Source: Mongoliibacter ruber
GTDB taxonomy: Bacteria; Bacteroidota; Bacteroidia; Cytophagales; Cyclobacteriaceae
DNA: 64,000 nt
NCBI RefSeq assembly: GCF_003003005.1
Contig: NZ_PVTR01000003.1
Location: 108,890-172,889, forward strand
Direction of reading: 5' to 3'
Each line of letters starts with the position of its first letter. Positions within the stretch are counted from its first letter, which is position 1. Made by a program: the position numbers and the translations under genes. Positions 1,146 to 24,762 of this stretch are shown piece after piece. The notes beneath the pieces were generated by a model. It was not told the origin of the DNA and did no database searches. It was given only the letters and a program-made list of their open reading frames with translations.

Positions 1146-1192
1146 CAAAAACGAGTAAAACAATGAGAGAAGTGGGTAGCGCAGTGTTAGAT

Positions 1193-1268: not shown

Positions 1269-1363
1269 GACTGATGAATAAGTCAATCGTTTGCATAAAA
1301 TTTGACAGCTTTTTTAGCTTCAAAATATACCCAACAACAAGCCGAATTATGTACTTTAGCCCT

Positions 1364-7174: not shown

Positions 7175-7281
7175 GCGTGTTTGTTATTGGGTATTGTTCT
7201 TCAAAGATAATAAATCCCTCTTAGTCAGTCAAAAACACGAGAGATAAGGTGCTTGGTTCTCAAATCTAATGAAATATTTAT

Positions 7282-7678: not shown

Positions 7679-10600
7679 TCAATTGACCTTTAAAAATACC
7701 GGGCTATCATTATTCCTCAAGGCAACGATGTGTTTTTCTCCTTTGATGGTTATGACCTGACATTGTCTATATTCTCCCCAAAATGCATCAGAGGGGAAGT
7801 CCAAAAGTATTTTTTCTATCCCTTTCTCAGTGACTTCCATCAGTGTAAGGGGTTGGGCAGAAGCATTTCCCAAATCTGTTCTGAATCCAAAAAAATTACC
7901 AAGTGACAGGATCAATTGCCTACCGTTTTCATCATCAAAAATAATAAAATCCCTGATCGGACTGAATTGGGCTTCTAAAGGGAATGGGAAAAACCGACTA
8001 GGACCATTTTTTTCAAAACTCAACATACCGGATTCTTGATGGTTAAAGACCAATTTATTGGCCTCCGCTAAGACAGACTTTTCAAACAAATCCTCTGGAG
8101 TCTTGACCTGACTGTAAGCTTTGTAATCTATATGCACCCGCTTGATCCCTGGCAACTGGCGCATCAAATCGTCTCTACTAGCAAAAGGGACCAGGTAACC
8201 ACTCATATAATGGAAGATTACAGGCTCATTTTGGCCATTATTATCAAAATCATGGTGGTACAGGTACACAGGATTTTCCTCACTCGCTTTCAATTTGGAA
8301 TTCAAACCTAAGTTCCCCAAAAGCAATTGTTGACCAGAGTCCGATTCTATCAAGCGCAAACCTGTGTACCAACCTGCGAAAGCGCCCAATTCTTTTTCCC
8401 AAAGCCTTTCAAAATGCCCTTCTCTGTTTTGCTTGTAAATCTGAAGTGGATTCCACTCCCCTGCCAATACCAATTCTTTTTCGCCATCTACTGTAAGGTC
8501 TGCCCATATGGCTTTTTGAATCATGCCAAATGAGATGTCTTTCCCGAAATACTTTTCGGTCATGTCAGTAAACCTCCCTTTACCATCATTGACCAGCAAA
8601 TAAGACTTCGGACTCGCCCCATAATCTCCCGTCACTGAAGAAGCACCCACAAAAATGTCTGGGTAGCCATCTCCGTTGATATCATGTAGAGCTACCGTAG
8701 AGGTGTTTTCTCCAATCGGAGGAAGGGCATTCATGGCAAATGAAAAACCCCCTTTACCGTCGTTGATAAATACCCGATCAAAATTAAAAATCTCTCCTGT
8801 CTTAAATTCATTGCCTCCACTTCCTACATACAGATCCGGATAGCCATCTCCATTCAAATCTTCCAAGACAGCAACCACATCTTCTGCCATTTTGAGTTGT
8901 TCAAAAACAGGCATATCCTGCTTGCTGAAGCTACCATCCTGATTTTGAAAGAAAACCGAAGAAGCTTGTCCTTTGGCGCCACCCAAAAACAAATCATCTA
9001 AACCATCCCCATTTACATCACCTACGGCCAATGCCGGACCTTCTGTTCCATACCTTCTGGGCATAAGGTATTCCCTTCTAAATTCGTCAAATGCTATATT
9101 CTCTTCATGCTTCCAATCCAAATCAACCTCAGCTATAGAAAGAACAGGTGAAGAAAAAGACTTCTTGGGGAATAAGGTAGTCTTACCCTTCCCTTTTTGA
9201 AGTTCTAGTTTTTGGTTGGCATCGAAACTCCCAAAATTCTCTGTCTGATCTACAGCCCAGCTGACAAGTACGGAATCCACCTTTTCTTTTTCACCCAATC
9301 CGAATGTCAAAACTGTCGATCCACCGGACTGAAATCCCCTAGAGGTACTCAAAGTTTGATGATAAACATCACCATTAGCATATATCCAAACTTGGGCACC
9401 TATACCAAACACATTTTGGGTATCTCCTTTAAGTTCTACCTGGAAAAATGCATTTTCTGATTTTTCAGAACTCCAATTTCTATAAATAAAAGCTTCTTGG
9501 TCGAGGTTATTGATCACCAAATCCAGATCTCCATCATTATCCAAATCAGCATATGCGGAACCATTGGAATAGGAAACTTGGTCAAGCCCCCATTGGGCAG
9601 CAACATTTTCAAATTGCAATTTGGAAGATTGCCTGAAGGCATAATTGGGCAGCTTCATGGTAGGCAACATGTCCACCTGTTTCTGTTGGATTTCCTTTTC
9701 AGATAATCCTGGCGAAGGTTCCTGACTGTATTGAATAAAATCCAGGTCATTGGGTCTTTTGACAATGCCATTGGTCACATGAATATCAGGAAAACCATCA
9801 TTGTCCATGTCAAAAATCAAAGGTGACCAACTCCAGTCTGTGGCAAAAGTATTGGTCAACAAGGCGATGTCACTGAATTTACCATTACCGCGGTTCAATT
9901 GCAGGTGGTTGCGTACATACTGGTCACCATAACCCATTCTCTTTTTCACATCAAAGACTTCCTGTTTGTCCTCTCCAACGGATTTCATCCAAATCTCAGG
10001 GTCTTCAGGAAGCATATCTGTGGTAAATATATCAGGCAACCCATCCAAATTGATGTCAGACAAATCATTCCCCATGCTGTAGCGGCTGGTGCTGGCGATA
10101 TAATCTTTGAGCGATTCCACAAAAGTCCCATCACCCTGATTGATGTACAGGTAATCGTCTTCCGTAAAATCGTTAGACACATAAATATCCAACCAACCGT
10201 CTTGATTAACGTCAGCAATACCCACTCCCAATCCAAAACCCAAGCTACTGGAAAGTATGCCAGCTTCCAGTGTGACATCCTCCATTTTTTCTACGCCTTC
10301 ACTTAGTAGGTTTTTGTATAGCCTGTCTCCTCCTTTTTCATCTACTGAAGTAAACTTGGTGTCTGCATGGGAAAAAACTTCGGGTTTTTTGATAGAATGA
10401 TTCAATAAATAAAGGTCCAAATCCCCATCCTGATCATAATCAAAAAATAAGGCATGCGTGGAAAACCCAACAAAGTCAATCCCATATTTTTCGGCTTCTT
10501 CGGTAAATGTAAGGTCACCGTTATTGATATAAAGACGATTTTTACCTTCCAAGCCTTTGTAGTCTCCTACTTGGCAGACATAAATATCCAACAATCCATC

Positions 10601-10984
10601 CCCGTTGACATCCGCCATGGTCACCCCTGTAGACCAACCTCCAGCACCGTTTACACCGGCAGATTGTGTAATGTCTTCAAACTGGAAATCACCCTTGTTG
10701 AGGTACAGCTTGTTTTCTCCCTGATTGGATGTAAAGTAAATATCAACCAGACCATCATTGTTGATGTCCCCTAGAGCCACACCGCCGCCATTGTAGAAAT
10801 AGAGGTACTCAATGATATTCAGGCTATCAGATGACGTGAGGTCATTTCGAAAGTCAATACCCGTCTCATCCGAAGAGAGAAGCTCAAATAGGGTGTCTTC
10901 CCGGGAGTCCGGAGCACAGGAAAAGCAAGCAATTGTGATCAAAAAAACACATATTCCAAACTTCCTCATTTCTGTATATCTCAT
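7679..10984 (-). CDS. FG-GAP/VCBS-repeat and ASPIC/UnbV lipoprotein, copy 1
   Basis: A 1,101-residue exported lipoprotein (ACFSC). It is built from two blocks of FG-GAP/VCBS beta-propeller blades flanking an ASPIC/UnbV domain at about residues 520-600 (VFGIGAQV ... GFQSGGSTVLTFGLG). At least ten calcium-binding loops of type DxNxDGxxD are visible, for example DINNDGLVD, DVNGDGLLD, DYDQDGDLD and DMDNDGFPD. Such proteins are sometimes annotated RNA-binding or CRTAC1-like; their bacterial function is not established. It follows copy 2 by 13 bases and is last in a minus-strand cluster headed by SusC/SusD. I use the start at 10984, with a second ATG at 10969 that also gives a good signal peptide. 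A large surface or periplasmic partner of SusCD is the inferred role. Confidence 0.9.
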   Translation of the reverse strand: MRYTEMRKFGICVFLITIACFSCAPDSREDTLFELLSSDETGIDFRNDLTSSDSLNIIEYLYFYNGGGVALGDINNDGLVDIYFTSNQGENKLYLNKGDFQFEDITQSAGVNGAGGWSTGVTMADVNGDGLLDIYVCQVGDYKGLEGKNRLYINNGDLTFTEEAEKYGIDFVGFSTHALFFDYDQDGDLDLYLLNHSIKKPEVFSHADTKFTSVDEKGGDRLYKNLLSEGVEKMEDVTLEAGILSSSLGFGLGVGIADVNQDGWLDIYVSNDFTEDDYLYINQGDGTFVESLKDYIASTSRYSMGNDLSDINLDGLPDIFTTDMLPEDPEIWMKSVGEDKQEVFDVKKRMGYGDQYVRNHLQLNRGNGKFSDIALLTNTFATDWSWSPLIFDMDNDGFPDIHVTNGIVKRPNDLDFIQYSQEPSPGLSEKEIQQKQVDMLPTMKLPNYAFRQSSKLQFENVAAQWGLDQVSYSNGSAYADLDNDGDLDLVINNLDQEAFIYRNWSSEKSENAFFQVELKGDTQNVFGIGAQVWIYANGDVYHQTLSTSRGFQSGGSTVLTFGLGEKEKVDSVLVSWAVDQTENFGSFDANQKLELQKGKGKTTLFPKKSFSSPVLSIAEVDLDWKHEENIAFDEFRREYLMPRRYGTEGPALAVGDVNGDGLDDLFLGGAKGQASSVFFQNQDGSFSKQDMPVFEQLKMAEDVVAVLEDLNGDGYPDLYVGSGGNEFKTGEIFNFDRVFINDGKGGFSFAMNALPPIGENTSTVALHDINGDGYPDIFVGASSVTGDYGASPKSYLLVNDGKGRFTDMTEKYFGKDISFGMIQKAIWADLTVDGEKELVLAGEWNPLQIYKQNREGHFERLWEKELGAFAGWYTGLRLIESDSGQQLLLGNLGLNSKLKASEENPVYLYHHDFDNNGQNEPVIFHYMSGYLVPFASRDDLMRQLPGIKRVHIDYKAYSQVKTPEDLFEKSVLAEANKLVFNHQESGMLSFEKNGPSRFFPFPLEAQFSPIRDFIIFDDENGRQLILSLGNFFGFRTDLGNASAQPLTLMEVTEKGIEKILLDFPSDAFWGEYRQCQVITIKGEKHIVALRNNDSPVFLKVN

Positions 10985-10997
10985 TAATGTTAAAAAC

Positions 10998-13900
10998 TCA
11001 GAACGTCCAAAATTCTACGGCGTCATTGTTTTTGATCACCATCAAAAGATTTTTGTCATTTCTTTTGACCAAGTGAAGGTCTCTTATATCTCCGTGCAAT
11101 TGCAGTCCATGTTGCTTATTGGGTAAATAATTGAAGGTTCCATCTCCATTCCCGATCAAGACTTCGCCATAGCTGCCATCATACTGCCCAACCTCAGGTT
11201 TGGCTCCTTTCAGATTTCCTCCTAAAATCAGGTCCTCAATCCCATCTCCATTCACATCCGTCACCAAAATACTGTAGATCCATGACCGTTGTGCCATTCT
11301 TGGCAATGGTTTGATCTCAAATTTACCCTCTCCTTTATTCAACATAATGGCTGATTCCCTGAAATTCAATTCCTGCATCACTGCATTTCTCAATTCAGTA
11401 GGGGTGAAAATATCCTCCATGTACTTGTTGTTGTAAGTGCTGTATTTCAAGAATCTCTTCTTGATAGAAGGCACCTGCATTTCTAATTGGTGCTTCAGCG
11501 TAAAGGGTATATGACGGCTGCCTTCCTTTTGTACAAACAAATGCTCAACTGAGCCATTTTGATCGAAATCATTGACAAACATCCGAATAGGTCGTTCAGT
11601 AGTCGGCTTAAATCGACTGTTTAACCCATGATTTCCCAACACAAAATCAGGCTTTCCATCTCCATTGAAATCTCCCACCGCAATGGCCTGATACCAGCCT
11701 TTGAAATCATCAAGCTCAGGCATTTCAAGTTTTTCGAATTGCCCACCTGTATTGCGCAAAATGGTTGGAGCCATCCATTCCCCCACCAAAATCAAGTCTT
11801 CTACACCATCTCCATCATAATCCACCAAGACAGCATCAGTGACCATACCTATCTCTTTCAGGTCAGGAGCAAATTGTTCTGTACCGTCGGTAAACTTCCC
11901 GTTTCCATCATTGAGCAAGATCATACTGCTCGCGTTGACACCATAAAGAAAAGGAATCACCCTTGCTCCAACAAAAAGATCCAAGTCCCCGTCTCCGTCA
12001 ATATCCATGACTTTGACCACTTTGCTGCTGTGACGAAAACTGCCCAAACCGCTGTCCTCTGATTTTGAAAAATTTCCACGACCATCGTTGAGATAAAGCC
12101 TGTCTGCCAAGTCCAAGGCCCCAAAACCGGATTCATTTCCTCCCGAAGTCACAAATAGATCTAAGTGCCCATTGCCATTGGCATCAAAAAACACACCATG
12201 GGTATCTTCTGAAATCCTGTCCGACCTGAATGCTTCCTGTGGTGAAGCTTTGAATTGCCCTTCAGAAACCTGCAAAAACAATTGCCCGGGGAAACCTTTC
12301 GCTCCACCCAGATACAAATCCTGCAAGCCGTTGCCATTGACATCACCCCAAACAGCCTTAGGTCCCTCGGTGGATAGCATATGATAGGTCAGTCTGTCTC
12401 TATCAAAATCAACAGCCTGATTTTCTTTGTGCGTATATTCCAATATTGATGAAGCTTCTATTTTCTCGAAAATCTTCCCTTCAGGTTTTTTGAAAAAATG
12501 AAAATCTTCAGGAGCATCCTCAGCATCATCCCATTTCAAGGTCAGTGTTTGATTGCTGCTGATATCTTTCAATATATTGATCTTTCCATCAGGCCATCTT
12601 ACTTGGATTTCATCAATTGTGTCTATCTGACCCAGCCCAAAATTCAACCTTGGGTCAACAGAAGACTGAAAACCCCTGTTTGGCATTTGTTCCAAGTAAA
12701 ATTCCTTGTCATCAACCAACAACCTTACTTGAGCACCAATCGCAGCCGTATTGCCACCTTTTCCTTCCAGAACTACTTTGAGGTAATTGTTTTCCGGAAG
12801 AAATTCCAAGGTTCTATTTTTGAAGATAAGCACCTCATTGTTGACATTGTTGACCACCAAGTCCATGGTTCCGTCATTATTCAAGTCGCCGTAAGCGGAA
12901 CCATTAGAGTGGATAGGATCACCCAAGCCCCATTCATGGATCACATTTTCAAAGATTAAATCGCCTTTGTTTTTGTAGGCATAATTTGACACTGGATTGA
13001 CAGGCATGGGATCAATCAACTTCCGATAATCCACACCATCCTGTGAGATGATAGCCCTTTTGGTCTCTTCATTGTCAATAAAATTGAGGTAATCCAAGTC
13101 AGTCAGGTCTTGGTAAATACCATTGGCTACAAAAATATCCTTGAGGCCATCATTATCCATATCAAACATCAAGGCTGCCCATGACCAATCAGTGGCCTCC
13201 ACATTGGCCATTCTACCCATATCGCTGTAAGTGCCATCTCCATTGTTAATATGGAGCATATTCCGGGTGTATTGATAATGATAGCCATGCTCTACATTGA
13301 ACTGAAATTTATCCCAAGATTCGAAGGTGGTAATCTGTTTCAATCTCTCAGGTGGCTCAGGAAGCATCTCAGTCACAAAAATATCGAGATAGCCGTCATT
13401 GTTAATGTCTGCAATATCTGCTCCCATGGAAGCGGCGGAAGTCGAACGCATATAATCTGTGAGAGATTCAGAAAAGGTGCCATCCTGATTGTTGATATAC
13501 AGGTAGTCCCTTTCAAAGAAATCATTTGAAATAAAAATATCCATCCAACCGTCTCTATTGACATCGCCAATCGTGATCCCCAAACCAAATCCGATTATCG
13601 AGCCATAGATCCCAGCCTCTTCAGACACGTCGGTAAACTTATCTCCATCGTTCCTGAAAAGCTTATCTCCACCAACAGGGTCTCTTCTCGGCCTTTCGTT
13701 CTGCATTTTATTGAAACTCCCAATTGCCTGATAACTATTATTGAGCAGATAAACATCCAAGTCTCCATCATTGTCGAAATCAAAAAATACTGCATGCGTA
13801 GAAAAGCCCTGGTCAGCAAGACCATATTGCTCGGCCATTTCGGTGAAAGTTCCGTCTCCGTTGTTGATAAATAACTCGTTCTGCTTATTATCACCTTTGA

Positions 13901-14324
13901 TATCGCCTGAATTGCAGACGTAAATATCCAACAAGCCATCTCCATTGATATCGGCCATGGCAACTCCCGTGCTCCAAGCACGGGTACCAGCCACACCAGC
14001 CTCCTTGGTGACATCTCTGAATTTGAAATCTCCTTCGTTGAGATAAAGCTTATTTTCCCCCATATTGGAAGTAAGGTAAATATCCAAAAGCCCATCATTA
14101 TTGACATCACCCAAGGCTACTCCTCCCCCATTGTAAAAATTTCTATAGGTGAAAATGTTGAACTTCTCATCAAATTCCAGGTCATTTCTAAAATCCACTC
14201 CTGAATAAGACGAGTCAATTTTTTGAAAAAGGGTGTCTTTCTGTTCCTTTTTTTTCTCAGCACAAGAAAAGGAAGTAACAGCTACTACAAATATGAATAT
14301 ATATCCTAAACTCTTAAGCCTCAT
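10998..14324 (-). CDS. FG-GAP/VCBS-repeat and ASPIC/UnbV lipoprotein, copy 2
   Basis: A 1,108-residue paralogue of the genes on either side, with lipobox VTSFSC and a clear ASPIC/UnbV domain at about residues 523-580 (AAIGAQVRL ... GFQSSVDPRLNFGLGQ). The N-terminal propeller shares with its paralogues the block YNGGGVALGDVNNDGLLDIY and many DxDxDG calcium loops. The start overlaps the preceding small lipoprotein gene by 11 bases, implying translational coupling. Length, domain order and repeat number are nearly those of copies 1 and 3, so the cluster arose by tandem duplication. Copies 2 and 3 share the C-terminal stretch MYVNDFDQNGSVE or close to it, more like each other than copy 1. Confidence 0.91.
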   Translation of the reverse strand: MRLKSLGYIFIFVVAVTSFSCAEKKKEQKDTLFQKIDSSYSGVDFRNDLEFDEKFNIFTYRNFYNGGGVALGDVNNDGLLDIYLTSNMGENKLYLNEGDFKFRDVTKEAGVAGTRAWSTGVAMADINGDGLLDIYVCNSGDIKGDNKQNELFINNGDGTFTEMAEQYGLADQGFSTHAVFFDFDNDGDLDVYLLNNSYQAIGSFNKMQNERPRRDPVGGDKLFRNDGDKFTDVSEEAGIYGSIIGFGLGITIGDVNRDGWMDIFISNDFFERDYLYINNQDGTFSESLTDYMRSTSAASMGADIADINNDGYLDIFVTEMLPEPPERLKQITTFESWDKFQFNVEHGYHYQYTRNMLHINNGDGTYSDMGRMANVEATDWSWAALMFDMDNDGLKDIFVANGIYQDLTDLDYLNFIDNEETKRAIISQDGVDYRKLIDPMPVNPVSNYAYKNKGDLIFENVIHEWGLGDPIHSNGSAYGDLNNDGTMDLVVNNVNNEVLIFKNRTLEFLPENNYLKVVLEGKGGNTAAIGAQVRLLVDDKEFYLEQMPNRGFQSSVDPRLNFGLGQIDTIDEIQVRWPDGKINILKDISSNQTLTLKWDDAEDAPEDFHFFKKPEGKIFEKIEASSILEYTHKENQAVDFDRDRLTYHMLSTEGPKAVWGDVNGNGLQDLYLGGAKGFPGQLFLQVSEGQFKASPQEAFRSDRISEDTHGVFFDANGNGHLDLFVTSGGNESGFGALDLADRLYLNDGRGNFSKSEDSGLGSFRHSSKVVKVMDIDGDGDLDLFVGARVIPFLYGVNASSMILLNDGNGKFTDGTEQFAPDLKEIGMVTDAVLVDYDGDGVEDLILVGEWMAPTILRNTGGQFEKLEMPELDDFKGWYQAIAVGDFNGDGKPDFVLGNHGLNSRFKPTTERPIRMFVNDFDQNGSVEHLFVQKEGSRHIPFTLKHQLEMQVPSIKKRFLKYSTYNNKYMEDIFTPTELRNAVMQELNFRESAIMLNKGEGKFEIKPLPRMAQRSWIYSILVTDVNGDGIEDLILGGNLKGAKPEVGQYDGSYGEVLIGNGDGTFNYLPNKQHGLQLHGDIRDLHLVKRNDKNLLMVIKNNDAVEFWTF

Positions 14325-14913
14325 CTTCCATTTTGATCATGTCCGAAATATCCTTCACCCTCAAATCTAGCATTTCAACCCGTACAGAAGTCATACTCTT
14401 TTTAAAAATCCTAATCAACCTGTTTCCTTCTACACTGACCATGGCCTTGACGGACTTGTTTTTATTGCTTACTTCAAAAAATGAGTCTCCATACCAAGTT
14501 TCCATCAGGCCTACAACATCCTCCATCAATCTATCTACTTCAAATTCTTCATTTCCTGGAAACCATCCCGGATAACTGAATTCAATCGGCATAAAAAAAA
14601 GTCTGCCCTCTTCGAATGCAGGATAGAAATGCATGTTGACTTCTTTGCCAGATGGCACTTCAGGTTTATACAACACCTGAAGGTAATGAGAACCGTTGGT
14701 CAGAACACCTTTTTTATTCCATTCCCAGCAAGTCCCAAAAAACTCTTTTCTATCCATCCCGAATTTAAGATCCAAAAAAAGCTCTTCCACTACCTTGCCA
14801 GAAGCCAGCTCCTTTTCCTTTACTCTATCAAATTCTGTCTTAGGTTGGCATGCCATCACAACCGCTGTAATGGCAATGAAGTAAAACATATTAATAATTA
14901 ACCCAAATCTCAT
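14314..14913 (-). CDS. Small lipoprotein of the VCBS/ASPIC cluster, unknown function
   Basis: A 199-residue probable lipoprotein: a hydrophobic N-terminus (FYFIAITAVVMAC) is followed by a charged linker QPKTEFDRVKEKE. I do not recognise the fold. The body is a mixed alpha/beta sequence with many aromatic residues and no enzyme motif. It sits between VCBS/ASPIC copies 3 and 2, 21 bases after copy 3 and overlapping copy 2 by 11 bases, so it is almost certainly made with them. An accessory or assembly role for the large lipoproteins is a guess from position only. Confidence 0.8.
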   Translation of the reverse strand: MRFGLIINMFYFIAITAVVMACQPKTEFDRVKEKELASGKVVEELFLDLKFGMDRKEFFGTCWEWNKKGVLTNGSHYLQVLYKPEVPSGKEVNMHFYPAFEEGRLFFMPIEFSYPGWFPGNEEFEVDRLMEDVVGLMETWYGDSFFEVSNKNKSVKAMVSVEGNRLIRIFKKSMTSVRVEMLDLRVKDISDMIKMEDEA

Positions 14914-14934
14914 ATCTATAACTTCTCCTAATAT

Positions 14935-17900
14935 TTAGTCTCTGAACATATACCACTTGGGAAAATTATTGTTGCGGCTAACCATCAACAATACTCCCTG
15001 GTCGGTTTTTACCTTTTGAATATTTCGGATTTCTCCTTCCACATAAAGCCCTGATCTTTCGGCAGGAACGACGATGATTTCACCTGAGCTATTTTGCTGA
15101 AGAAGCCATCCATAACTCCCCATTTGTATTCCCAACTCCGGTTTTATTCTACTTTGGTTTCCCCCTAAAATCAAGTGCTTTTCGTTATTTTTGGCCAAAA
15201 CTCCAAGGCTTGCGTAAATCGGGGCATATTGTACTTCAGTGGGTAGATTTTCCCGTGTAAAGGTACCATTTCCTTTATTTTTATAAAGGGCAGACGACAA
15301 AGTCTTAGCTTCTAAAACCAAACTATTGTCAAGTATATCCTGGGAGAATAAATCCTCCATTTTCTTGTCTTTATATGCATCATAAGTCAAGAGTTGCTTT
15401 CTCAGCCCTGGCAACTGTTTGAGCAGGCTGGACTTGAGTACAAAAGGAAATTCTTCACCATTTTCATAGACAGTGAGGATTTGTTCCACACTTCCATTTT
15501 GATCAAAATCATTGACATACATGCGTAGAGGTTCGCTTTCAGAAGCCTGAAGCCGGGTATTTGTCCCAGAATTCCCAAAGAACAAATCCATCCGTCCATC
15601 TCCATCCCAATCCAAAACACTTACTGAATTCCAAAGACCTGAGGTGTTTTCAAATCCCAAATCCGTAGAAATATCTTCAAATGAACCTCCAGAAATTTTA
15701 TATATCTTAATAGGCATCCACTCTCCTACTACTACCAATTCATCCTGACCATCACCATCTACATCTGCCAACACTGCATCGGTCAACATGCCCATTTTTT
15801 CAAATTCTGGCACATTTACTCTTTCAAAGGTAGCATCACCTTTATTCCTAAACAATTTCAAATCTCCAGGCAATCCATATGCAAATGGTAAGTTCCGTAC
15901 CCCTACCAACAAGTCTATATTCCCATCCTGATCGTAATCCCAAGGCAAGGTGAAAGCGGAACTTTCTAAGTCTCGGGGCAAACCATTTTCTGACTGGGCA
16001 AAACTCCCTTTCCCATCATTAAGGTAGAGCCTATTTTGGTAATTAGCATTCCCAATCCCAAACTCCAAGCCACCACTGACCACATACAAGTCCATCAACC
16101 CGTTGCCATTGGCATCAAAAAACACTCCTGCAACATCTTCCGACAATTTGTTTTCTTCAAAAGTTTGAGAAACTTCAAAAGCCCCATTTCTCTTTTGCTT
16201 CAAGATGACAGAAGCTTGTCCTTTTGCTCCCGGGAAAAAAACATCATCCAAACCATCCCCATTGATGTCAGCCACGGCAGGGTTTGGGCCTTCGTTAGAA
16301 ATCATATGGAACCGCAACCTGTCCCTATCAAAGTCAATAAAATCACTTTCCTGGTGCTGCCAAGGAAAATCAACCTGCACTTCTTCCAAGAAGGTACTGA
16401 ATTCTTCCCTTGAAAAATCATATTCCTCAGTTATTTCATTTGGGCAAAGCACATGAATGGTATCCAATGCTGGATTATCAATTTGGGTCACCGAACCGTT
16501 TGGCCAAATTACTTCCAAAGCATCAATTGCTGATATTTCGCCCAATCCAAAATGCATGCGTGGATCAACAGAAGACATGTAGCCCTTGACAGGATTGTGT
16601 TCAGCATACCACATCTTCTCCCCTGACCGGATAGTCACCTGGGCTCCGAAATGCCTACCCAGATCCAATTGCACAAAATGATTGGTATAAAGCGATTCAC
16701 TGTTATTTTTGAAAATAAAGACCTCGCCATTGAGGTTGTTGACTATCAAATCAAGGTCTCCGTCATTGTCCAAGTCAGCATAAGCTGCTCCTGTGGAAAA
16801 TGTCTCTTGGTCCATCCCGACCTGGGCGGCCAATTCGGTAAAGTCAAAACCTCCATTATTTTTGAACAGAAAATTCCTCTGAGGTACTGAGGGAAAATTG
16901 TCAATCATGCTGATGAGCAGGGTTGAATCCTTTTTGTTTTGGGCAATCTGACTTTGATTGTGCACGTAATAGTCCACGTAGTCAAAGTCCGTCAAATCTT
17001 TTACTATTCCATTGGCTACAAAAATATCCCTATAGCCATCATTATCCATATCAAAAATCAAAGCTCCCCAAGACCAATCTGTGGCATGCACACCGGCCAT
17101 TCTGGAGATTTCAGCAAAATGAACTTGATCAGAATTAGGCTTGAAACCTAAGTTTCGCTGTAGTGTATTCCTGGTGAATTGATGAAAATAACCCGCCTTT
17201 ACATTGGCCTGGTATTTATCCCACTCTTCAAAAGGTGTCTTTGTCTTTACCCTTTCCAGTCTATTTGGAAGCATTTCGGTAATAAAAATATCCAACCAGC
17301 CATCATTGTCTAAGTCCGCAATATCTGCACCCATAGATCCCATGCTGATTTCTGTCATCATTTCTTCCAAGGCTTCTGTAAATGTCCCATCTCCATTGTT
17401 GATGTACAGGTAATCTTTTTCAAAAAAATCATTGGAAACATACAAGTCCGGCCATCCATCTTTGTTAAGGTCAGCCACGGTGACACCAAGTCCATATCCT
17501 ATTGCAGAACCGTAAATCCCGGCTTCTTCACTCACATCTGTAAAAAATCCACCATCATTCCGGTAGAGTTTATTTCCACCCATAGGATCTCTGACATCTC
17601 TTTGACCTATTCTCAGGTCATTCACCCCAACAGACCGGGCAGAGTTGTTCAGGAGGTACATATCCAGATCACCATCTTTGTCAAAGTCAAAAAAAACAGC
17701 ATGTTGAGATAATCCTTCATCAGCAATACCGTATGCTTTGGCACTTTCAGTAAAGGTCAAATCTCCATTATTGATGTAAAGAGAATTATACCTTTCCTCT
17801 CCACCTAATGGGCCTGACTTACAGATATAAATATCCAACAAACCGTCACCGTTCACATCTGCCATGGAAACACCAGTCGACCATATTCCAGGGACCGCCA

Positions 17901-18219
17901 GTCCAGCCTTCTCTGTAATGTCTTCGAATTGGAAATTCCCCTTGTTCAAATAGAGTTTATTTTCCGTTTGATTCCCCGCCAAAAAAATGTCGATCAGTCC
18001 ATCATTATTGATGTCTCCCAAAGCCACCCCGGCACCATTGTAAAAGTTCCTGAAAGTATATGGGTTGAAATTTTCATTATAGCTCAGGTCATTTCGAAAT
18101 GAAACACCAGTATCATCACTATCCATCAACTCAAACAGCATTTTTCCTTGCTGGGACTTTTCAGCACAGGAAAATAAGAGTAGTAAGATGGGCGCAAATG
18201 TGCTTAGAAAGGATCTCAA
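14935..18219 (-). CDS. FG-GAP/VCBS-repeat and ASPIC/UnbV lipoprotein, copy 3
   Basis: A 1,094-residue lipoprotein (LLLFSC) that is first of the three large paralogues in transcription order. ASPIC/UnbV lies at about residues 520-577 (HFGAQVTI ... GYMSSVDPRMHFGLGE). Calcium loops include DINNDGLID, DVNGDGLLD, DFDKDGDLD, DLNKDGWPD, DLDNDGWLD and DYDQDGNID. It begins about 100 bases downstream of the SusD stop, with a hairpin terminator in between. It is therefore expressed from its own promoter or by read-through from SusCD. The three genes share long DNA-level similarity, for example around the repeated CCATCATTATTGATGTC motifs, which makes gene conversion or recombination among them plausible. 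Confidence 0.91.
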   Translation of the reverse strand: MRSFLSTFAPILLLLFSCAEKSQQGKMLFELMDSDDTGVSFRNDLSYNENFNPYTFRNFYNGAGVALGDINNDGLIDIFLAGNQTENKLYLNKGNFQFEDITEKAGLAVPGIWSTGVSMADVNGDGLLDIYICKSGPLGGEERYNSLYINNGDLTFTESAKAYGIADEGLSQHAVFFDFDKDGDLDMYLLNNSARSVGVNDLRIGQRDVRDPMGGNKLYRNDGGFFTDVSEEAGIYGSAIGYGLGVTVADLNKDGWPDLYVSNDFFEKDYLYINNGDGTFTEALEEMMTEISMGSMGADIADLDNDGWLDIFITEMLPNRLERVKTKTPFEEWDKYQANVKAGYFHQFTRNTLQRNLGFKPNSDQVHFAEISRMAGVHATDWSWGALIFDMDNDGYRDIFVANGIVKDLTDFDYVDYYVHNQSQIAQNKKDSTLLISMIDNFPSVPQRNFLFKNNGGFDFTELAAQVGMDQETFSTGAAYADLDNDGDLDLIVNNLNGEVFIFKNNSESLYTNHFVQLDLGRHFGAQVTIRSGEKMWYAEHNPVKGYMSSVDPRMHFGLGEISAIDALEVIWPNGSVTQIDNPALDTIHVLCPNEITEEYDFSREEFSTFLEEVQVDFPWQHQESDFIDFDRDRLRFHMISNEGPNPAVADINGDGLDDVFFPGAKGQASVILKQKRNGAFEVSQTFEENKLSEDVAGVFFDANGNGLMDLYVVSGGLEFGIGNANYQNRLYLNDGKGSFAQSENGLPRDLESSAFTLPWDYDQDGNIDLLVGVRNLPFAYGLPGDLKLFRNKGDATFERVNVPEFEKMGMLTDAVLADVDGDGQDELVVVGEWMPIKIYKISGGSFEDISTDLGFENTSGLWNSVSVLDWDGDGRMDLFFGNSGTNTRLQASESEPLRMYVNDFDQNGSVEQILTVYENGEEFPFVLKSSLLKQLPGLRKQLLTYDAYKDKKMEDLFSQDILDNSLVLEAKTLSSALYKNKGNGTFTRENLPTEVQYAPIYASLGVLAKNNEKHLILGGNQSRIKPELGIQMGSYGWLLQQNSSGEIIVVPAERSGLYVEGEIRNIQKVKTDQGVLLMVSRNNNFPKWYMFRD

Positions 18220-18268
18220 AGCTATTAGAGTAATATTGGGCTAATTATTTCTATTTGGTATAAATCAA

Positions 18269-18296
18269 AAAGAAGTGCACAAACGTGCACTTCTTT
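18269..18296 (-). terminator. Rho-independent terminator after the SusC/SusD pair
   Basis: Perfect 12-base arms AAAGAAGTGCAC and GTGCACTTCTTT enclose a 4-base loop. Read on the minus strand the hairpin is followed by TTTTTGAT, giving a U-tract. It lies 25 bases past the SusD stop codon and separates SusCD from the VCBS/ASPIC genes. Confidence 0.82.
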
Positions 18297-18320
18297 CATG
18301 TTTTAGTATGTCAAACCTGA

Positions 18321-19823
18321 TTAATAACCAGGATTTTGAGACAAGCTTGGATTAGCCTGTAGCTGATTCTCTGGGATTGGGAATAGATTTCTGAATGCCG
18401 GTGAAGCTGCTTTTTCCCACCATGCATCATTGAATCTTCCAAACCTGATCAAATCAGATCTTCTATGACCTTCAGCAAACAACTCTCTACCTCTTTCTGC
18501 CAATAGAACATTCGCATCCAAAGAAGAAAGTAATGGCGCATTGGCTCTTTCTCTCAATTGGTTGACCAATTGAAGAGCTGTAGAATTGTTACCCAATCTC
18601 CACTCTGCTTCTGCTTTCATCAACAAAACATCAGCGAACCTGTATATTGGAAAGTCATTGCTCAAGTTAGGCGCTGCACCCATAGCAATTTCAAACTTAC
18701 CTATCCTAGTACCTGCCTGACGGAAAGCATTAGGTCCAAGTTGATTGATTTCAGGAGTAAAGTTGATTTCAGGTCCATCAGGATCACCATCAAAGGCGTC
18801 ATCTATCAATGGCGTAACACCATCAGCAGCGAATTGAGGACCTTCTCTTAAAGATGCCTTTCTGGTATCTCCCTCTTCAAAACTATTGTAAAATTCTTCC
18901 AAAGCCGCATACCCGTTCCATGGCTGCTCTTGCAACTCAAATGTCAATTGATTAGAGTAATGCAGAGACATTTGGTGAATATTGAATCCTGGAGCGTTGT
19001 TTGCATCATAAGGAACTGTAAACATGTTCTCAGGTGAATTGTCATTGTTAGTAGAAAAGTTCGAGAAGAAGTTTGGCGCTAACGAATAAGGACCTTCATT
19101 GATGATGACATCCAAAATTGTATTGGCGTCAGCCCACCTTGGTGATCCTGTATACACTTCTGCATTTAGGTATAACTTGGCCAACATCATATGTGCTGTC
19201 CAATAGTTAAGGTTTGACCTAGTATTTTCTCTTGTCAAAGTCTCAACATTTTCCAAAATTGAAGACTCAATGAAATCGAATACTTCCTGTCTTGTGCTTT
19301 GCACAGGGCTACCGCCTCTATCTGTTTCTCTGATAATTGGGACATTTCCAAAATTATCAATCAACAGAAGGTAACCAAAAGCTCTAAGCACTCTTAATTC
19401 AGCTGCCAGCTCGTCAAGATCTGGGTATTGCTGTAGCAACAAGTTTGACTCAGCCACAATTCTGAATCCATATTGCCAGGCACCATTCAAAGGACCATCT
19501 ACTGAGATCCAAGTATGCCTATGCGTTCTCAACCAAATACCACCATCTTCCCAATCCGCACCTTTCTGCGGGATGGCCAATTCGTCCGATGATACTTCTA
19601 CCACTGCATAATAACCGCCGTGACCACCAAATCCGCCTTGATCACTTGCTACTACTGCACCATATGCAGATTGCTTCAATACTTCGATCAGCTCGGGAGT
19701 AACATTCGCCTCCAACTCCTCCTGCGTGATACCCGAAAGTACCTCCTGCTCCAATTCCCAACAAGACCCCATGGCAACTGCCACCAAGCCTCCCATTAAT
19801 ACTGTTTTAATTGATCGTAACAT
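18321..19823 (-). CDS. SusD/RagB-family outer-membrane lipoprotein
   Basis: A 500-residue SusD-like lipoprotein (signal ending VAMGSC). It should form the lid that captures ligand over the SusC channel at the cell surface. Family marks include the N-terminal NVTPELIEVLKQSAYG region, the central TPR-like part with NYWTAHMMLAKLYLNAEVY, and the C-terminal block YRFADVLLMKAEAEWRLG then RGRELFAEGHRRSDLIRFGRF. The gene lies 19 bases after its SusC partner. The ligand cannot be read from sequence, and no glycoside hydrolase is in the same operon; the downstream partners are VCBS/ASPIC lipoproteins instead. Confidence 0.95.
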   Translation of the reverse strand: MLRSIKTVLMGGLVAVAMGSCWELEQEVLSGITQEELEANVTPELIEVLKQSAYGAVVASDQGGFGGHGGYYAVVEVSSDELAIPQKGADWEDGGIWLRTHRHTWISVDGPLNGAWQYGFRIVAESNLLLQQYPDLDELAAELRVLRAFGYLLLIDNFGNVPIIRETDRGGSPVQSTRQEVFDFIESSILENVETLTRENTRSNLNYWTAHMMLAKLYLNAEVYTGSPRWADANTILDVIINEGPYSLAPNFFSNFSTNNDNSPENMFTVPYDANNAPGFNIHQMSLHYSNQLTFELQEQPWNGYAALEEFYNSFEEGDTRKASLREGPQFAADGVTPLIDDAFDGDPDGPEINFTPEINQLGPNAFRQAGTRIGKFEIAMGAAPNLSNDFPIYRFADVLLMKAEAEWRLGNNSTALQLVNQLRERANAPLLSSLDANVLLAERGRELFAEGHRRSDLIRFGRFNDAWWEKAASPAFRNLFPIPENQLQANPSLSQNPGY

Positions 19824-19842
19824 ATTTATTTTTGAGTTTATG

Positions 19843-22827
19843 TTATTTAAATGTTAGGGTTAATCCCAAAGTCACAATTCTTGGCAAGAAATAAGTATTT
19901 CTTCTTTCAATACCAGGAGCCAAAGGATTAGGGTTTAATACATCTTCTGTATCCGTCCATCTTACTTCTGGGTCAACTCCTGAGAATTGAGTAAACGTGA
20001 TCAGGTTTTGCACCCCACCATAGAATCTTAAGTTGTTGATACTTTCAGAATTTGTCGGAAAGTTATACCCTATTTGAAGGTTGTCCAACCTGATGAAATC
20101 TCCTCTTTCCAAATACAAATCAGAGAAAGTAGGTGTAGATGTAACAAGCGGATTGGTCGGAGTGTTTCGAGTAACCACTGAATTCCAGGAATTTGAAGCA
20201 CCATCAGCGTTTTCATAGAATCCTCTGAATGAGTTGTAGATCATATGACCGAAGCTACCTCTTGCCAAGAAATTCAAATCCCAGTTACCATAAATGAACG
20301 TATTTGAGAAACCAAAGTCACCTACAGGTAAACCATTGCCTAATCTTTCAAATTCAGCAGGATTTTCTCCTGAAAGAATATATTCTCCTCCATCAGTAAA
20401 TCCTTCCATCCTTGGACCGTAGAAATCACCAATTCTTTCACCTTCTCTGTTCCATACAATTGGGTTGTTGTTTTGACCCGGAGCGCCCGGAATACCTTGA
20501 CGGATTTCAGGAAGCTGAATAGAACCTACACCGATATTTTCAATTCTTGTCCTTTTGTAGATGGTGAAGTTTACTGTTGGTGTCCAAGAAACAGGACCCA
20601 ATTTCAAGTCATTCACACTTGCAATAAATTCGAAACCTGCAGATGTCAGGTCACCTACGTTAGCCCAAATATTTGGTGCAGTGTAGAAGTTGCCTGGAAG
20701 GAACTCATTTGGTGCACCAACTGGAACGGTTGTATTGAATATCAAATCAGAGATTGTTCTCTGGTAATAATCCATTTGACCGGTAATCCTACCATTAAAT
20801 AACCCGAAATCTAAACCAACAGTAAATTCTTGTGTGGTTTCCCATCTCAACTGAGGGTTAGGGTTTGAAAGTTGGTTGATACCCACAAATACTGAATTTG
20901 GGTCAGTCGGGTCCAAAGGAATCCTGTTACCGTTTCCATAAATACCCAAAGCCAATGTTGGATTAGGAGGAAGCTGTCCAACCACTCCAAATGAAGCCCT
21001 TGGCTTGAACTGATTGAAAATACCCATGTCAAAAACCTGAGTCAGGTCAGCACCCGCACTTACTGCAGGAAATAGACCTGTTTGGTTTTCTCTACCAAAT
21101 CCTGAATAAGTCTCTGCTCTTAAAGAAGCAGAAAGGAAATAAGTATTGGCATAATTGAAATTTGCTCTTGTGAATAAAGAGTTCAAAATAGCTCTTGTAG
21201 CAAAAGACCCCATGCCTGTACCTGGGCCTAATCTAAGTCCACCAGCACCTAAATTATTAGGACCTTGATCAAAAAGGAATCTTGTAGAAGAGGCATTCAT
21301 TCCTCTCTCTTCAAAAACTTGAGTCTCAGCACCCGCCAAAAGGGCAAAATTTAACCTATCTGCAATCTCGTCTTCAAATCTGATAGTACCATTCCAGATA
21401 CTTGTAGTTCTGTCAAAAAGGTTTTGACCAGCCTGTCCGTTTCTACCAAAACCTGTTTCAAAATCTTGTCTTGAATAAAATTGGGTTGAAAGATCAGTAA
21501 ACCTATCTTGGGAAAACTGAGATGAGATTGTAAACTTATCAGAAAGGTCATACTCCGCTCTAAAAGAATAAATTGCGGCTCTTTGTTCATTTGTAAATCT
21601 TTGCTGATTGATTAAAGCAACAGGATTGTAGAAATCAAACAATGGTCTTTGGAAATATCCACCGAAATCTCTGTTTGCGCCTTCAGTGTTTTCAAAAACA
21701 GGAGCTGTAGGATTATAAATAGTGGCGTACCTTACTGCCTCTGAATTTACATTTTGTCCATCTGTATTGGTGAAAGACAAATTGAGATTCAATCTCAATC
21801 TATTGTTCAATGCACCATGCGACATATTGAACCTCGTATTCAAAGATTCTCTATTTGTATTCTGAACAATACCGTCATTATTACGATAGTTGACAGAAGC
21901 TAAAAATTGAGTATTTTCAAATCCACCTGTTATGGAAGCATTGACCGTCCCATTGTAAGCAGTCTGCAAGACCTCATCTCTCCAATTTGTTTGTGAACCG
22001 TAGTTGGTTCCACCTCTTTCTACAAATTCTTCTGCAGATAAAACCGGAATCAAATTGGTTGGAGATTCAGCTGTACCAAAGGTGTTGATGGTTACAGAAG
22101 AAATTCCTTTTTTAGAAGTTCCTTTTTTGGTCGTTATCAAAATTACACCGGCAGCACCTCTTGTACCATAGATGGCAGCTGCAGAAGCATCTTTCAACAC
22201 ATCAAATGTTTCGATATCATTTGGATCGACTGCATCGATAGAAGCACCGATTACACCATCCAATACAATCAGAGGAGACTGTGAAGCTCCAAAAGAGGAA
22301 ATACCTCTTAAACGAACAGTAGGTGCTTCGTTAGGGTTACCACCTGGCCTTGTTACTGAAAGGCCCGCTACTTTACCTTGTAGCAATTGGGTAGGATTAG
22401 TGAAGTTACCTCTGTTGAATTGTTCTGAACTAACAGAAGCTACAGCAGATGTAATCTCCTTTTTATCCTGTGTACCATAACCGATCACGACAGCTTCCTG
22501 TAAGCTTTGGATATCTTCTTCCAATTGGATATCGACGATGGATTGGTTACCAATTGTTACTTCTTGTGCAGTAAATCCAACAAAAGAAAAAACTAGAACC
22601 TGATCTCCAGGTTGAACACTGATGGTGTATCTACCATCTAAATCGGTAGTAGTACCTCGGGTGGTGCCTTTCACCAAAACTGTTACGCCTGGTAGTGGGT
22701 CACCAAATTCGGTATCCAGGACTGTACCTGATACCTCCCTGCCTTGTGCATTTGCTGCTGCAATACTGAATACCATCAGTACGGTTACCAGCATAAATGC
22801 TTTTAATTTTTGTAAATAATTTCTCAT
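19843..22827 (-). CDS. SusC/RagA-family TonB-dependent outer-membrane transporter
   Basis: A 994-residue TonB-dependent transporter with signal peptide ending AAANAQG. It has an N-terminal carboxypeptidase-regulatory-like domain (VSGTVLDTEFGDPLPGVTV, about residues 32-110), a plug starting near QEAVVIGYGTQDKKEIT with the SusC marks VRLRGISSFG and AAAIYGTRGAAGVILITTKKG, and a long beta-barrel ending in LTLTFK with a terminal aromatic. It imports ligands too large for porins, powered by TonB-ExbBD. It is first in the unit with SusD 19 bases behind. A TAGATTTG -7 box lies about 47 bases upstream of the start. Confidence 0.96.
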   Translation of the reverse strand: MRNYLQKLKAFMLVTVLMVFSIAAANAQGREVSGTVLDTEFGDPLPGVTVLVKGTTRGTTTDLDGRYTISVQPGDQVLVFSFVGFTAQEVTIGNQSIVDIQLEEDIQSLQEAVVIGYGTQDKKEITSAVASVSSEQFNRGNFTNPTQLLQGKVAGLSVTRPGGNPNEAPTVRLRGISSFGASQSPLIVLDGVIGASIDAVDPNDIETFDVLKDASAAAIYGTRGAAGVILITTKKGTSKKGISSVTINTFGTAESPTNLIPVLSAEEFVERGGTNYGSQTNWRDEVLQTAYNGTVNASITGGFENTQFLASVNYRNNDGIVQNTNRESLNTRFNMSHGALNNRLRLNLNLSFTNTDGQNVNSEAVRYATIYNPTAPVFENTEGANRDFGGYFQRPLFDFYNPVALINQQRFTNEQRAAIYSFRAEYDLSDKFTISSQFSQDRFTDLSTQFYSRQDFETGFGRNGQAGQNLFDRTTSIWNGTIRFEDEIADRLNFALLAGAETQVFEERGMNASSTRFLFDQGPNNLGAGGLRLGPGTGMGSFATRAILNSLFTRANFNYANTYFLSASLRAETYSGFGRENQTGLFPAVSAGADLTQVFDMGIFNQFKPRASFGVVGQLPPNPTLALGIYGNGNRIPLDPTDPNSVFVGINQLSNPNPQLRWETTQEFTVGLDFGLFNGRITGQMDYYQRTISDLIFNTTVPVGAPNEFLPGNFYTAPNIWANVGDLTSAGFEFIASVNDLKLGPVSWTPTVNFTIYKRTRIENIGVGSIQLPEIRQGIPGAPGQNNNPIVWNREGERIGDFYGPRMEGFTDGGEYILSGENPAEFERLGNGLPVGDFGFSNTFIYGNWDLNFLARGSFGHMIYNSFRGFYENADGASNSWNSVVTRNTPTNPLVTSTPTFSDLYLERGDFIRLDNLQIGYNFPTNSESINNLRFYGGVQNLITFTQFSGVDPEVRWTDTEDVLNPNPLAPGIERRNTYFLPRIVTLGLTLTFK

Positions 22828-23229: not shown

Positions 23230-23390
23230 ATTGTAGATCTTAGATTTAAGATTTTAGAATTGGGTTTGAGGTTGTTCATGGGTTTAGGTAAGAAAGAAGA
23301 ATATGAAAGTATGATGCTGGGCATATTTTTCTATTTTATTTCACGAAGTATATTTCTACCTTATTTCACAAAGTATATCTCAATTAGAAA
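23230..23390. repeat. Two dispersed repeats upstream of the lactone-oxidase-like gene
   Basis: Bases 23230-23309 match 33417-33496 (shared words ATTTTAGAATTGGGTT and GAGGTTGTTCA). Bases 23333-23385 form two degenerate tandem half-units, TTATTTCACGAAGTATAT and TTATTTCACAAAGTATAT, related to the ATAT/TTCG elements at 1193 and 39361. Both lie in the open 5' extension of the next gene and are not coding. Confidence 0.6.
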
Positions 23391-23394
23391 CCTC

Positions 23395-24762
23395 ATGAAC
23401 AAAAGAACCTTTGTCAAAAACACCACCGTCCTAATCGGGGCAGCATTTGTTTCGCCCTGGATTTCCTGTTCACCCAAAAAACCTGAATCAATGCAAGCTG
23501 ATTACCTTTTGAACTGGGCTGAGAATTTCCGTTTCAGCACCAACAATGTCCACTACCCCAAATCAATTGCCGAAGTGCAAGAGTTAGTCAAAAAAAGCAG
23601 TTCCCTCAGGGTTTTGGGCTCAAGACATTCTTTTAATAGCATTGCAGATTCTGATGAGATGTTGGTTTCTTTTGACCATTTGAACAAAATCATTTCCCTC
23701 GATAAAGAAAAAATGGAGGTGACTGTAGAAGGTGGAATCAAATATGGTGAACTTTGTACTTTTCTGCATGAGAATGGTTTTGCTTTGCATAATCTCGCTT
23801 CCCTTCCTCATATCTCCGTCGCAGGGACGATTGCTACCGCCACCCACGGATCTGGACTGGAAAATGGCAACCTGTCCACTGGAGTCGCTGCTTTAGAATT
23901 TGTAAACGCAAAAGGTCAAATAGTCAGTTTAGGTAAAGAGGATGAGGAATTCTATGGCGCAGTGGTCGGGTTGGGCGCTTTAGGTCCGGTGACCCAAGTA
24001 ACCTTGGAATTGCAACCGGCTTTCGAGGTCGCACAGGTAGTCTACTTAGACATGCCCATGGAAGCGCTCAAAGATAACTTTCGCGAAATCATGGGTTCGG
24101 CATACAGTGTAAGTTTGTTTTTAGACTGGGCTAGCGACAAAGTAAATGAGGTCTGGATAAAAAAAAGGGTGACCACGGGTGAAGAGCCTGAATTTCCTGA
24201 GGAGTTTTTTGGAGCCAAAAAGGCAAGTATCAAGATGCACCCTGTACCATCAATGGACGCAGAAAGTTGTTCAGAGCAATTGGGTACACCGGGACCATGG
24301 TACGACAGACTTCCCCATTTCAAGATGGAGTTTCAACCCAGTGCCGGTAAAGAACTGCAATCGGAATTCTTTGTCTCATTGGAAAAGGGGTATGAAGCCA
24401 TTATGGCTGTCAAAGAAATGTCCGAACAAATTCATCCTCATCTTTTTATTTCAGAAATCAGGACCATCAAAGCGGATGACCTGTGGATGAGCACCGCCTA
24501 TCAGAGGGATTCCGTTGCCATCCATACCACCTGGAAACAGGAAATCCCTGAAGTGATGGCTTTGCTTCCTCAAATGGAATCCAAGCTGGAAAAATTTAAT
24601 CCAAGACCGCACTGGGCAAAGTTGTTTACCATCCCCTATAGCACCCTAAGTAGCCGCTACCCCAAGCTGGAAGCATTCAAGACCCTGTTGGCCAAACACG
24701 ACCCCGACGGAAAATTCAGGAATGAATTTGTGAAGAGGAATGTGTTTGGGGAGGAAAGGTGA
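23395..24762 (+). CDS. FAD-linked sugar-1,4-lactone-oxidase-like protein (VAO family)
   Basis: A 455-residue flavoprotein of the vanillyl-alcohol-oxidase superfamily, in the group of L-gulono/D-arabinono-lactone and alditol oxidases. The FAD-binding PP-loop GSRHSFNSIADS near residue 75 contains the histidine that is covalently flavinylated in this group. HISVAGTIATATHGSG near 140 follows, and the C-terminus has PRPHWAKLF plus DPDGKFRNEFVKR. The start at 23395 gives a signal MNKRTFVKNT...PWISC, lipoprotein-like with a twin-arginine-like basic start, so it is probably exported. The frame is open back to 23260, but that stretch is repeat DNA. Substrate is likely a sugar lactone or polyol; this is inference from the family. 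Confidence 0.9.
   Translation: MNKRTFVKNTTVLIGAAFVSPWISCSPKKPESMQADYLLNWAENFRFSTNNVHYPKSIAEVQELVKKSSSLRVLGSRHSFNSIADSDEMLVSFDHLNKIISLDKEKMEVTVEGGIKYGELCTFLHENGFALHNLASLPHISVAGTIATATHGSGLENGNLSTGVAALEFVNAKGQIVSLGKEDEEFYGAVVGLGALGPVTQVTLELQPAFEVAQVVYLDMPMEALKDNFREIMGSAYSVSLFLDWASDKVNEVWIKKRVTTGEEPEFPEEFFGAKKASIKMHPVPSMDAESCSEQLGTPGPWYDRLPHFKMEFQPSAGKELQSEFFVSLEKGYEAIMAVKEMSEQIHPHLFISEIRTIKADDLWMSTAYQRDSVAIHTTWKQEIPEVMALLPQMESKLEKFNPRPHWAKLFTIPYSTLSSRYPKLEAFKTLLAKHDPDGKFRNEFVKRNVFGEER

Follow-up and report, generated by a model that had tools for sequence, protein, structure and literature searches.

What role do giant repeat-containing lipoproteins play beside a SusC-SusD transporter pair whose operon encodes no polysaccharide-degrading enzyme? 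The question is raised by a 64,000-nucleotide stretch of the genome of Mongoliibacter ruber (contig NZ_PVTR01000003.1, positions 108,890 to 172,889), hereafter referred to as the window. On its minus strand, genes for SusC, SusD, a first FG-GAP and ASPIC/UnbV lipoprotein (ASPIC-A), a small lipoprotein, two further FG-GAP and ASPIC/UnbV lipoproteins (ASPIC-B and ASPIC-C), a haloperoxidase and rsmG follow each other in the order of transcription. We suggest, with a probability of about 45%, that the operon encodes a SusCD uptake system for a small alpha-glucoside, in which double-propeller ASPIC lipoproteins occupy the slot of the surface glycan-binding proteins (SusE, SusF or SGBP). The features of the locus are listed below, with positions counted from the first nucleotide of the window.

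22827-19843, minus strand: SusC/RagA-type TonB-dependent outer-membrane transporter, 994 amino acids (TIGR04056, 616.1 bits, cut-off 368.25)
19823-18321, minus strand: SusD-type lipoprotein, 500 amino acids (PF07980, 98 bits; PF14322, 45.5 bits)
18268..18297, minus strand: terminator-like hairpin in the gap between susD and the ASPIC-A gene, 13 pairs and a T-rich tail, 24 nucleotides past the susD stop codon
18219-14935, minus strand: ASPIC-A, FG-GAP and ASPIC/UnbV lipoprotein, 1094 amino acids, F-type slot (PF13517, PF01839, PF07593; F clade)
14913-14314, minus strand: small lipoprotein (SML), 199 amino acids, of no known family
14324-10998, minus strand: ASPIC-B, FG-GAP and ASPIC/UnbV lipoprotein, 1108 amino acids, F-type slot (Pfam; F clade)
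10984-7679, minus strand: ASPIC-C, FG-GAP and ASPIC/UnbV lipoprotein, 1101 amino acids, N-type slot (Pfam; N clade)
7202..7233, minus strand: possible Bacteroidota-type promoter before the haloperoxidase gene (match to the pattern TTTG-N-TAnnTTTG)
7174-5828, minus strand: vanadium-haloperoxidase-family lipoprotein, 448 amino acids (4cit, 476.8 bits; seven active-site residues)
5789-5157, minus strand: rsmG (open reading frame)

The analysis of open reading frames and protein families confirmed all seven genes claimed in a preliminary description of the window, namely SusC, SusD, three FG-GAP and ASPIC/UnbV lipoproteins of ~1,100 residues, a small lipoprotein and a haloperoxidase-like gene. The susC and susD genes are adjacent (19 bp gap) and both products belong to named families, which identifies them as a SusCD pair, and a gene for an accessory lipoprotein, ASPIC-A with its lipobox, follows straight after susD at a distance of 101 bp. 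From SusC to rsmG, the intergenic gaps measure 19, 101, 21, -11, 13, 504 and 38 bp in transcription order, such that the haloperoxidase gene is set apart, 504 bp behind ASPIC-C. A pattern search located lipobox sites in SusD, in ASPIC-A, -B and -C, in the small lipoprotein and in the haloperoxidase. Searches with Pfam and NCBIfam identified no glycoside hydrolase among the operon genes, in agreement with the preliminary description, and no lyase or esterase, which sets the operon apart from polysaccharide-utilization loci; nor does the locus contain a GH65 or GH37 enzyme, as kojibiose/trehalose loci do. The nearest glycoside hydrolase found is a GH13-type gene (1163-3244) located 2.6 kb beyond the haloperoxidase gene, which was dropped as a candidate part of the system because it is not part of the operon and is read from the other strand.

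The association of SusCD with ASPIC genes is not due to chance. The nearest named relatives belong to the Cyclobacteriaceae (Mongoliibacter, Indibacter, Cognataquiflexum and Aquiflexum); a genome of the same genus (G001) and a Mongoliibacter metagenome-assembled genome have a SusD that is identical between the two. When named genomes were searched with the small lipoprotein, five loci were recovered. The full order from SusC to an rsmG relative, with all three ASPIC genes, the small lipoprotein and the haloperoxidase in place, is kept in four of these, all from named Cyclobacteriaceae, and in the fifth it is kept until the contig ends inside ASPIC-B. The window and 40 fetched regions (4 from its own genome and 36 from relatives) contain 42 clusters of long ASPIC genes, of which 28 have SusD within two genes upstream, 12 have the haloperoxidase within three genes downstream and six have both. 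A phylum-wide sample of 60 regions contains 33 such clusters, with the haloperoxidase in six of them and the haloperoxidase together with SusD in four. Clusters at contig ends were scored as misses, and since the regions were hand-picked, those of relatives mostly from best-scoring matches, these fractions are not population estimates. The genome of the window itself encodes 15 SusD proteins, as judged from PF07980, and seven ASPIC genes in five clusters, four of which have SusD directly upstream. Among short ASPIC proteins (450-800 amino acids, complete within the region), only 1 of 25 has SusD within two genes upstream. Thus, the check that had been proposed for the window, whether ASPIC genes stand beside SusCD in relatives, showed the link to be frequent and did not refute the idea of a partnership.

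The relationships of the SusD proteins were analyzed in a tree of 80 sequences, 50 with an ASPIC gene directly behind them and 30 without. The tree required 12 changes of the ASPIC label, as compared to a mean of 24.6 for shuffled labels (0 of 500 shuffles were as low), although most of the sequences had been fetched through ASPIC, which favors clustering of the label. The window SusD is placed in a group of 31 proteins, 30 of which are ASPIC-linked (support 91, not starred). A search of the phylum for SusD that was independent of ASPIC, in which positions were matched by eye and SusD proteins split into pieces can be missed, showed that among the matches listed the five best (>400 bits, own protein included) are ASPIC-linked, as are 9 of 12 over 230 bits and 11 of 22 over 180 bits. 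The latter numbers led us to reject the stronger statement that all close SusD relatives have an ASPIC partner. Distances between SusD proteins correlated with distances between the ASPIC proteins that follow them (Mantel r = 0.39, p = 0.001, for 32 loci after removal of 8 near copies), and the co-divergence of SusC and SusD was stronger (r = 0.79), in both cases without control for the species tree.

The ASPIC proteins of the window share 40-47% pairwise identity, and FG-GAP_3 (PF13517), FG-GAP (PF01839) and PF07593 are above cut-off in each of them. Calcium-loop motifs were counted 13 times in ASPIC-A, 14 times in ASPIC-B and 11 times in ASPIC-C, and in each protein seven of them precede the ASPIC domain and the others follow it; the proteins probably fold into two propellers. 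FG-GAP loops bind calcium, and the loops of the ASPIC proteins are presumably held by it. By sequence, they are related to two solved proteins, cartilage acidic protein 1 and integrin alpha-6, and ASPIC-B matches a chain of the former in part (9etn, 67.3 bits).

In a FastTree phylogeny of 131 long ASPIC proteins, ASPIC-A and ASPIC-B belong to one clade (F, 48 sequences) and ASPIC-C to another (N, 32 sequences). Among the 28 loci that encode two or more proteins of these clades, 25 have both types, and in 24 the N type stands last; nine of the 28 loci are close orthologues (window, L015, L027, L032, L049, L108 and L110-L112), so the independent cases are fewer. The exceptions, L038, L077 and L091, have F types only. 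Locus L046 combines one F-type protein with one from outside the two clades, and the pattern was not seen at L021, L028, L029, L036 and L059, whose ASPIC proteins fall outside the F and N clades. F and N are thus two old slot types, which is a new observation. That two fixed slots persist across several families and classes speaks against recent tandem copies and in favor of proteins with different roles in a single assembly. SusC and SusD form a lidded transporter that imports ligands with energy from TonB, and we propose that the F-type (ASPIC-A and -B) and N-type (ASPIC-C) proteins would be positioned with this transporter at the cell surface, where they would capture the ligand or present it. 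The earlier suggestion that these lipoproteins work with SusCD at the surface to capture a ligand is partly supported at the sequence level: it would fit with genes in the slot immediately behind susD, with the lipobox sites and with clades that are specific to a slot. At L015, the ASPIC-B gene, located between those for the small lipoprotein and ASPIC-C, reads as two frames of 253 and 888 amino acids, a possible frameshift or assembly error.

For the small lipoprotein, neither Pfam nor NCBIfam yielded a match at E 0.001, and each of its five relatives in named genomes is encoded between ASPIC-A and ASPIC-B. Its match in the PDB to a galactosyltransferase (E 0.0046) was too weak and was not used.

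The hairpin in the gap between susD and ASPIC-A is a recurrent feature of such junctions, which is likewise a new observation. Similar hairpins (7-16 pairs, at most one mismatch, T-rich tail) were observed 10-36 nucleotides past the susD stop codon at 36 of 50 SusD-ASPIC junctions, as compared to 6 of 24 junctions between SusD and some other gene of the same strand (Fisher p = 0.0002); the cut-off score of 13 was chosen once a first set of hairpins had been inspected. The difference persisted when 8 near copies of the window were dropped (28/42, p = 0.002). Elsewhere, the hairpin was present at 2 of 6 SusD junctions with an opposing gene, at none of 82 SusC-SusD and 34 ASPIC-ASPIC junctions, and at 1 of 26 ASPIC-haloperoxidase junctions. 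Among 162 other gaps with a length of 60-200 bp, 15 had it, and it was absent from shuffled sequences. Terminator scans alone gave chance numbers, and the susD-end hairpin stands out only from the comparison of junction classes. The sequences of these hairpins vary while the stem is retained. The natural reading is partial termination of transcription, in which the hairpin would halt part of the transcripts at the end of susD and thereby yield the transporter in excess of its ASPIC partners.

The gene described as a haloperoxidase-like neighbour was confirmed as such by its near full-length match to the Zobellia-type vanadium haloperoxidase 4cit (residues 8-443), with PF01569 below cut-off (22.6 versus 27.2 bits), and it is more than a neighbour, since the link recurs even where SusCD is lacking. 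The protein contains K323, R330, S357, G358, H359, R409 and H415, in agreement with the series K, R, S-G-H, R, H, which we take to be the residues that bind vanadate. These positions are conserved in 42 of 42 haloperoxidase sequences, except that one sequence runs off its contig ahead of the seventh. A phosphatase-like role, on the same fold, is conceivable for the protein. In 24 genomes (own included), 25 haloperoxidase matches above 350 bits were identified, 16 beside a long ASPIC gene and 9 not; two of the 16 are one gene away (L124, with a GH65 gene between, and L129). The phylum search yielded 16 matches above 300 bits (three in the own genome), 11 of them near an ASPIC gene, with up to two genes between and one pair on opposite strands. 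The link to ASPIC persists at L010, L012, L013 and L043, where SusCD is not adjacent. Loci L010, L012 and L043 contain a separate conserved row of a 412-amino-acid ROK-family gene, ASPIC and haloperoxidase, with no SusCD directly upstream, and at L121 the same 412-amino-acid gene and the haloperoxidase occur with no ASPIC gene between.

We propose that the haloperoxidase lipoprotein may serve as a recurrent accessory surface enzyme, possibly with its own promoter in the window. Promoter-like elements also precede the gene at L108, L034 and L032, a different one is found at L049, and none was seen at L015 or L110-L112. The pattern, presumably the Bacteroidota promoter consensus, occurs six times in the window, as compared to 4.6 expected by chance. 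A gene for an FAD-dependent sugar-lactone oxidase-type protein (23260-24762), divergent from SusC, was considered as a source of peroxide but was dropped, because phmmer detected no match at E 1e-5 in the other loci L008-L130.

Clues to the substrate come from genes next to related SusD proteins. In the SusD subclade that adjoins that of the window (L026, L048, L056, L063, L122, L124 and L129), at least one of GH65, trehalase, GH13 and a sodium symporter is encoded at six of the seven loci, L129 having none of them: GH65 at L026, L048 and L124, trehalase at L063 and L124, the symporter at L122 and L124, and GH13 at L056, L122 and L124. The GH65 enzyme of L124, the one that was run against NCBIfam, scores above the cut-off of the kojibiose hydrolase family NF053734 (1104.9 versus 800 bits). 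Locus L122 also encodes a MIP channel, glycerol kinase (GlpK) and a glycerol-3-phosphate oxidoreductase; in L122:508-7913, these three, the symporter and GH13 stand behind SusCD-ASPIC-ASPIC-haloperoxidase, a row that looks like a glucosylglycerol-type utilization operon. The window's own SusD subclade includes loci with GH65 (L052), with GH32 at 340 bp downstream (L038), and with an aldo/keto reductase and a 3-keto-disaccharide hydrolase (L045). Trehalase, symporter and GH13 are found at two haloperoxidase loci without ASPIC (L115 and L116), and 3 of 9 full-length trehalases adjoin a haloperoxidase in the genomes covered by both searches. In genome G036, which gave no ASPIC match, a related SusD, GH65 and trehalase occur together. 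No GH65 match was obtained in the genome of the window, and its one full-length trehalase is encoded on the contig of the locus at a distance of ~170 kb, next to a different SusCD pair. We guess that the ligand may be a small alpha-glucoside, such as trehalose or a kojibiose-type or glucosyl-glycerol-type compound, which in this organism would be broken down after import by genes elsewhere.

Several observations weigh against the proposed uptake system and its substrate. The phylum sample had SusD upstream in only 12 of the 33 ASPIC clusters (13 of 33 for SusC or SusD), several ASPIC loci lack SusCD altogether, and the four SusD-ASPIC pairs in the genome of the window show no evident parallel in their distances. 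The residues past the lipid cysteine of the ASPIC proteins display no clear lipoprotein export signal (LES) for the surface: the acidic fraction at positions +2 to +8 is 0.06-0.34 (85 of 131 proteins with a lipobox match), and it is 0.73 at +3 and +7 of the SusD proteins (37/53). We know of no surface-export signal that has been defined for this order. With regard to the substrate, the operon contains no catabolic gene, and the substrate is hence borrowed from other loci. Genes for GH65, GH37, GH32, GH13 or the symporter were not significantly enriched at 93 fetched loci with long ASPIC or haloperoxidase (16/93 versus 1/20 control SusCD loci, p = 0.30); GH65, GH37 or GH32 were present at 9 of the 93. 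The one control locus with such genes (L131) comes from the window's own genome and has trehalase and symporter without ASPIC, and unlike enzymes are encoded at other ASPIC loci, including GH9, GH20, GH30, alpha-L-fucosidase, an arabinofuranosidase-like protein, an amidohydrolase and a Rieske oxygenase. Given these enzymes and the lack of significant enrichment, the substrate of the window is a guess guided by related loci. As to whether the ligand may be other than a standard glycan, the loci of some relatives hint at small alpha-glucosides and 3-keto-disaccharides, with no significant excess over the control SusCD loci.

Other functions of the locus are conceivable. The haloperoxidase could be central to a halogen or iodine system, oxidizing iodide or bromide at the surface, with SusCD-ASPIC handling a halogenated ligand or protecting against algal halogen chemistry. 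Its best solved relative, 4cit, is a haloperoxidase, the active-site positions are conserved as described above, and a Zobellia vanadium iodoperoxidase, vIPO3, was upregulated with the brown alga A. nodosum (PMC9296495). However, many SusCD-ASPIC loci have no haloperoxidase, the trehalase, GH13 and symporter genes at L115 and L116 are left unexplained, and the divergent sugar-lactone oxidase gene has no counterpart in the other loci, which makes a halogen system rather unlikely. The ASPIC lipoproteins might instead be surface adhesins or matrix proteins that are merely co-regulated with SusCD and take no part in uptake, as their relationship to cartilage acidic protein 1 and integrin alpha-6 and the ASPIC loci without SusCD would allow. 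We consider this improbable, since the slot after susD, the slot-specific clades and the co-divergence with SusD exceed what loose co-regulation needs.

Improbable, too, is a variant of the starch or dextran utilisome in which the ASPIC proteins bind a large alpha-glucan and the glucanases are encoded elsewhere. The best solved chain for SusC is a dextran utilisome entry (8aa4, 274.1 bits), SusD 3ck7 is the second of 31 solved SusD matches (93.7 bits), and the GH13-type gene lies in the vicinity. Yet the operon has no surface glucanase, the alpha-glucoside enzymes named to date at the relatives' loci (trehalase and kojibiose hydrolase) act on disaccharides, and the solved matches are distant; the window SusD scores 147.4 bits with the starch SusD model NF033071, far under the cut-off of 725. 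Roles in the assembly or export of outer-membrane proteins have been reported for SusCD-like proteins of Bacteroidota, and ASPIC proteins are widespread, with matches in 33 of 39 order-level genomes and 35 of 80 phylum-level genomes (each count includes the own genome). That the SusCD-ASPIC assembly serves such a role and not nutrient uptake is nevertheless very improbable, as a patchy distribution and paralogy, with up to 40 matches in one genome and none in others, are unlike a housekeeping function. Returning to uptake of a small alpha-glucoside, a more far-reaching version would define a class of 'propeller utilisomes', in which a heteromer of F-type and N-type ASPIC calcium propellers joins SusCD, the conserved hairpin fixes the excess of the transporter, the ligands are small alpha-glucosides such as osmolytes of photosynthetic microbes, and the haloperoxidase carries out surface chemistry that uptake requires or that protects it. 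Bacterial ASPIC/UnbV proteins would thereby gain their first defined role. This version is speculative and, on the whole, unlikely.

Elsewhere in the window, a second TonB-dependent receptor-like gene with a Plug domain (26450-28885) is followed by a DUF4249 gene (25404-26453), and a sulfatase gene with an SGSH_C domain (46021-47718) is located away from the operon.

If the ASPIC proteins are partners of SusCD, a large and so far unassigned protein family would gain a testable function. For SusCD loci without polysaccharide enzymes, there would be a class of substrates worth trying, and the lipoproteins of the haloperoxidase family in Bacteroidota would be placed in a genomic context. The susD hairpin makes the stoichiometry of transporter to partner simply testable. 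Among the papers listed in searches of the open-access literature, which lacks most subscription journals, we found none linking ASPIC/UnbV to SusCD. The main texts of PMC8319329 and PMC6794258 contain no mention of VCBS, ASPIC, FG-GAP, trehalose or haloperoxidase, the available part of the main text of PMC8490876 names neither SusD nor TonB, and the available part of PMC3174227, which mentions UnbV, holds nothing on a link between ASPIC and SusCD. The individual parts are known, and we located no account of the compound SusCD-ASPIC-haloperoxidase system in the open literature.

Compared with known systems, the locus resembles the SusCD glycan utilisomes of Bacteroides for levan and dextran (PMC7618045) in its tandem SusC-SusD genes and neighbouring lipoprotein genes. 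It differs in having no surface glycoside hydrolase, in that its extra lipoproteins are FG-GAP/ASPIC proteins of 1,100 amino acids in two slot types, and in the presence of a haloperoxidase-family lipoprotein. A hairpin separates susD from the partner gene in the window, the Bacteroides operons being outside the hairpin comparison. Kojibiose and trehalose loci (NF053734, TreF) share enzymes with some of the related SusD-ASPIC loci, whereas the locus of the window is without any. With the Zobellia-type vanadium haloperoxidases (4cit/4usz), the haloperoxidase shares a near full-length match, the seven active-site positions and the lipobox. It differs in the link of its family to SusCD-ASPIC or to genes for alpha-glucoside use, a comparison that did not take in the surroundings of the Zobellia gene. 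The ASPIC/UnbV and FG-GAP family (PF07593, PF13517), which includes human CRTAC1 (9etn), has FG-GAP repeats and the ASPIC domain above the Pfam cut-offs in common with the proteins of the window. The CRTAC1 chain was matched in part, and the window proteins differ in being lipoproteins of ~1,100 amino acids whose repeats flank the ASPIC domain.

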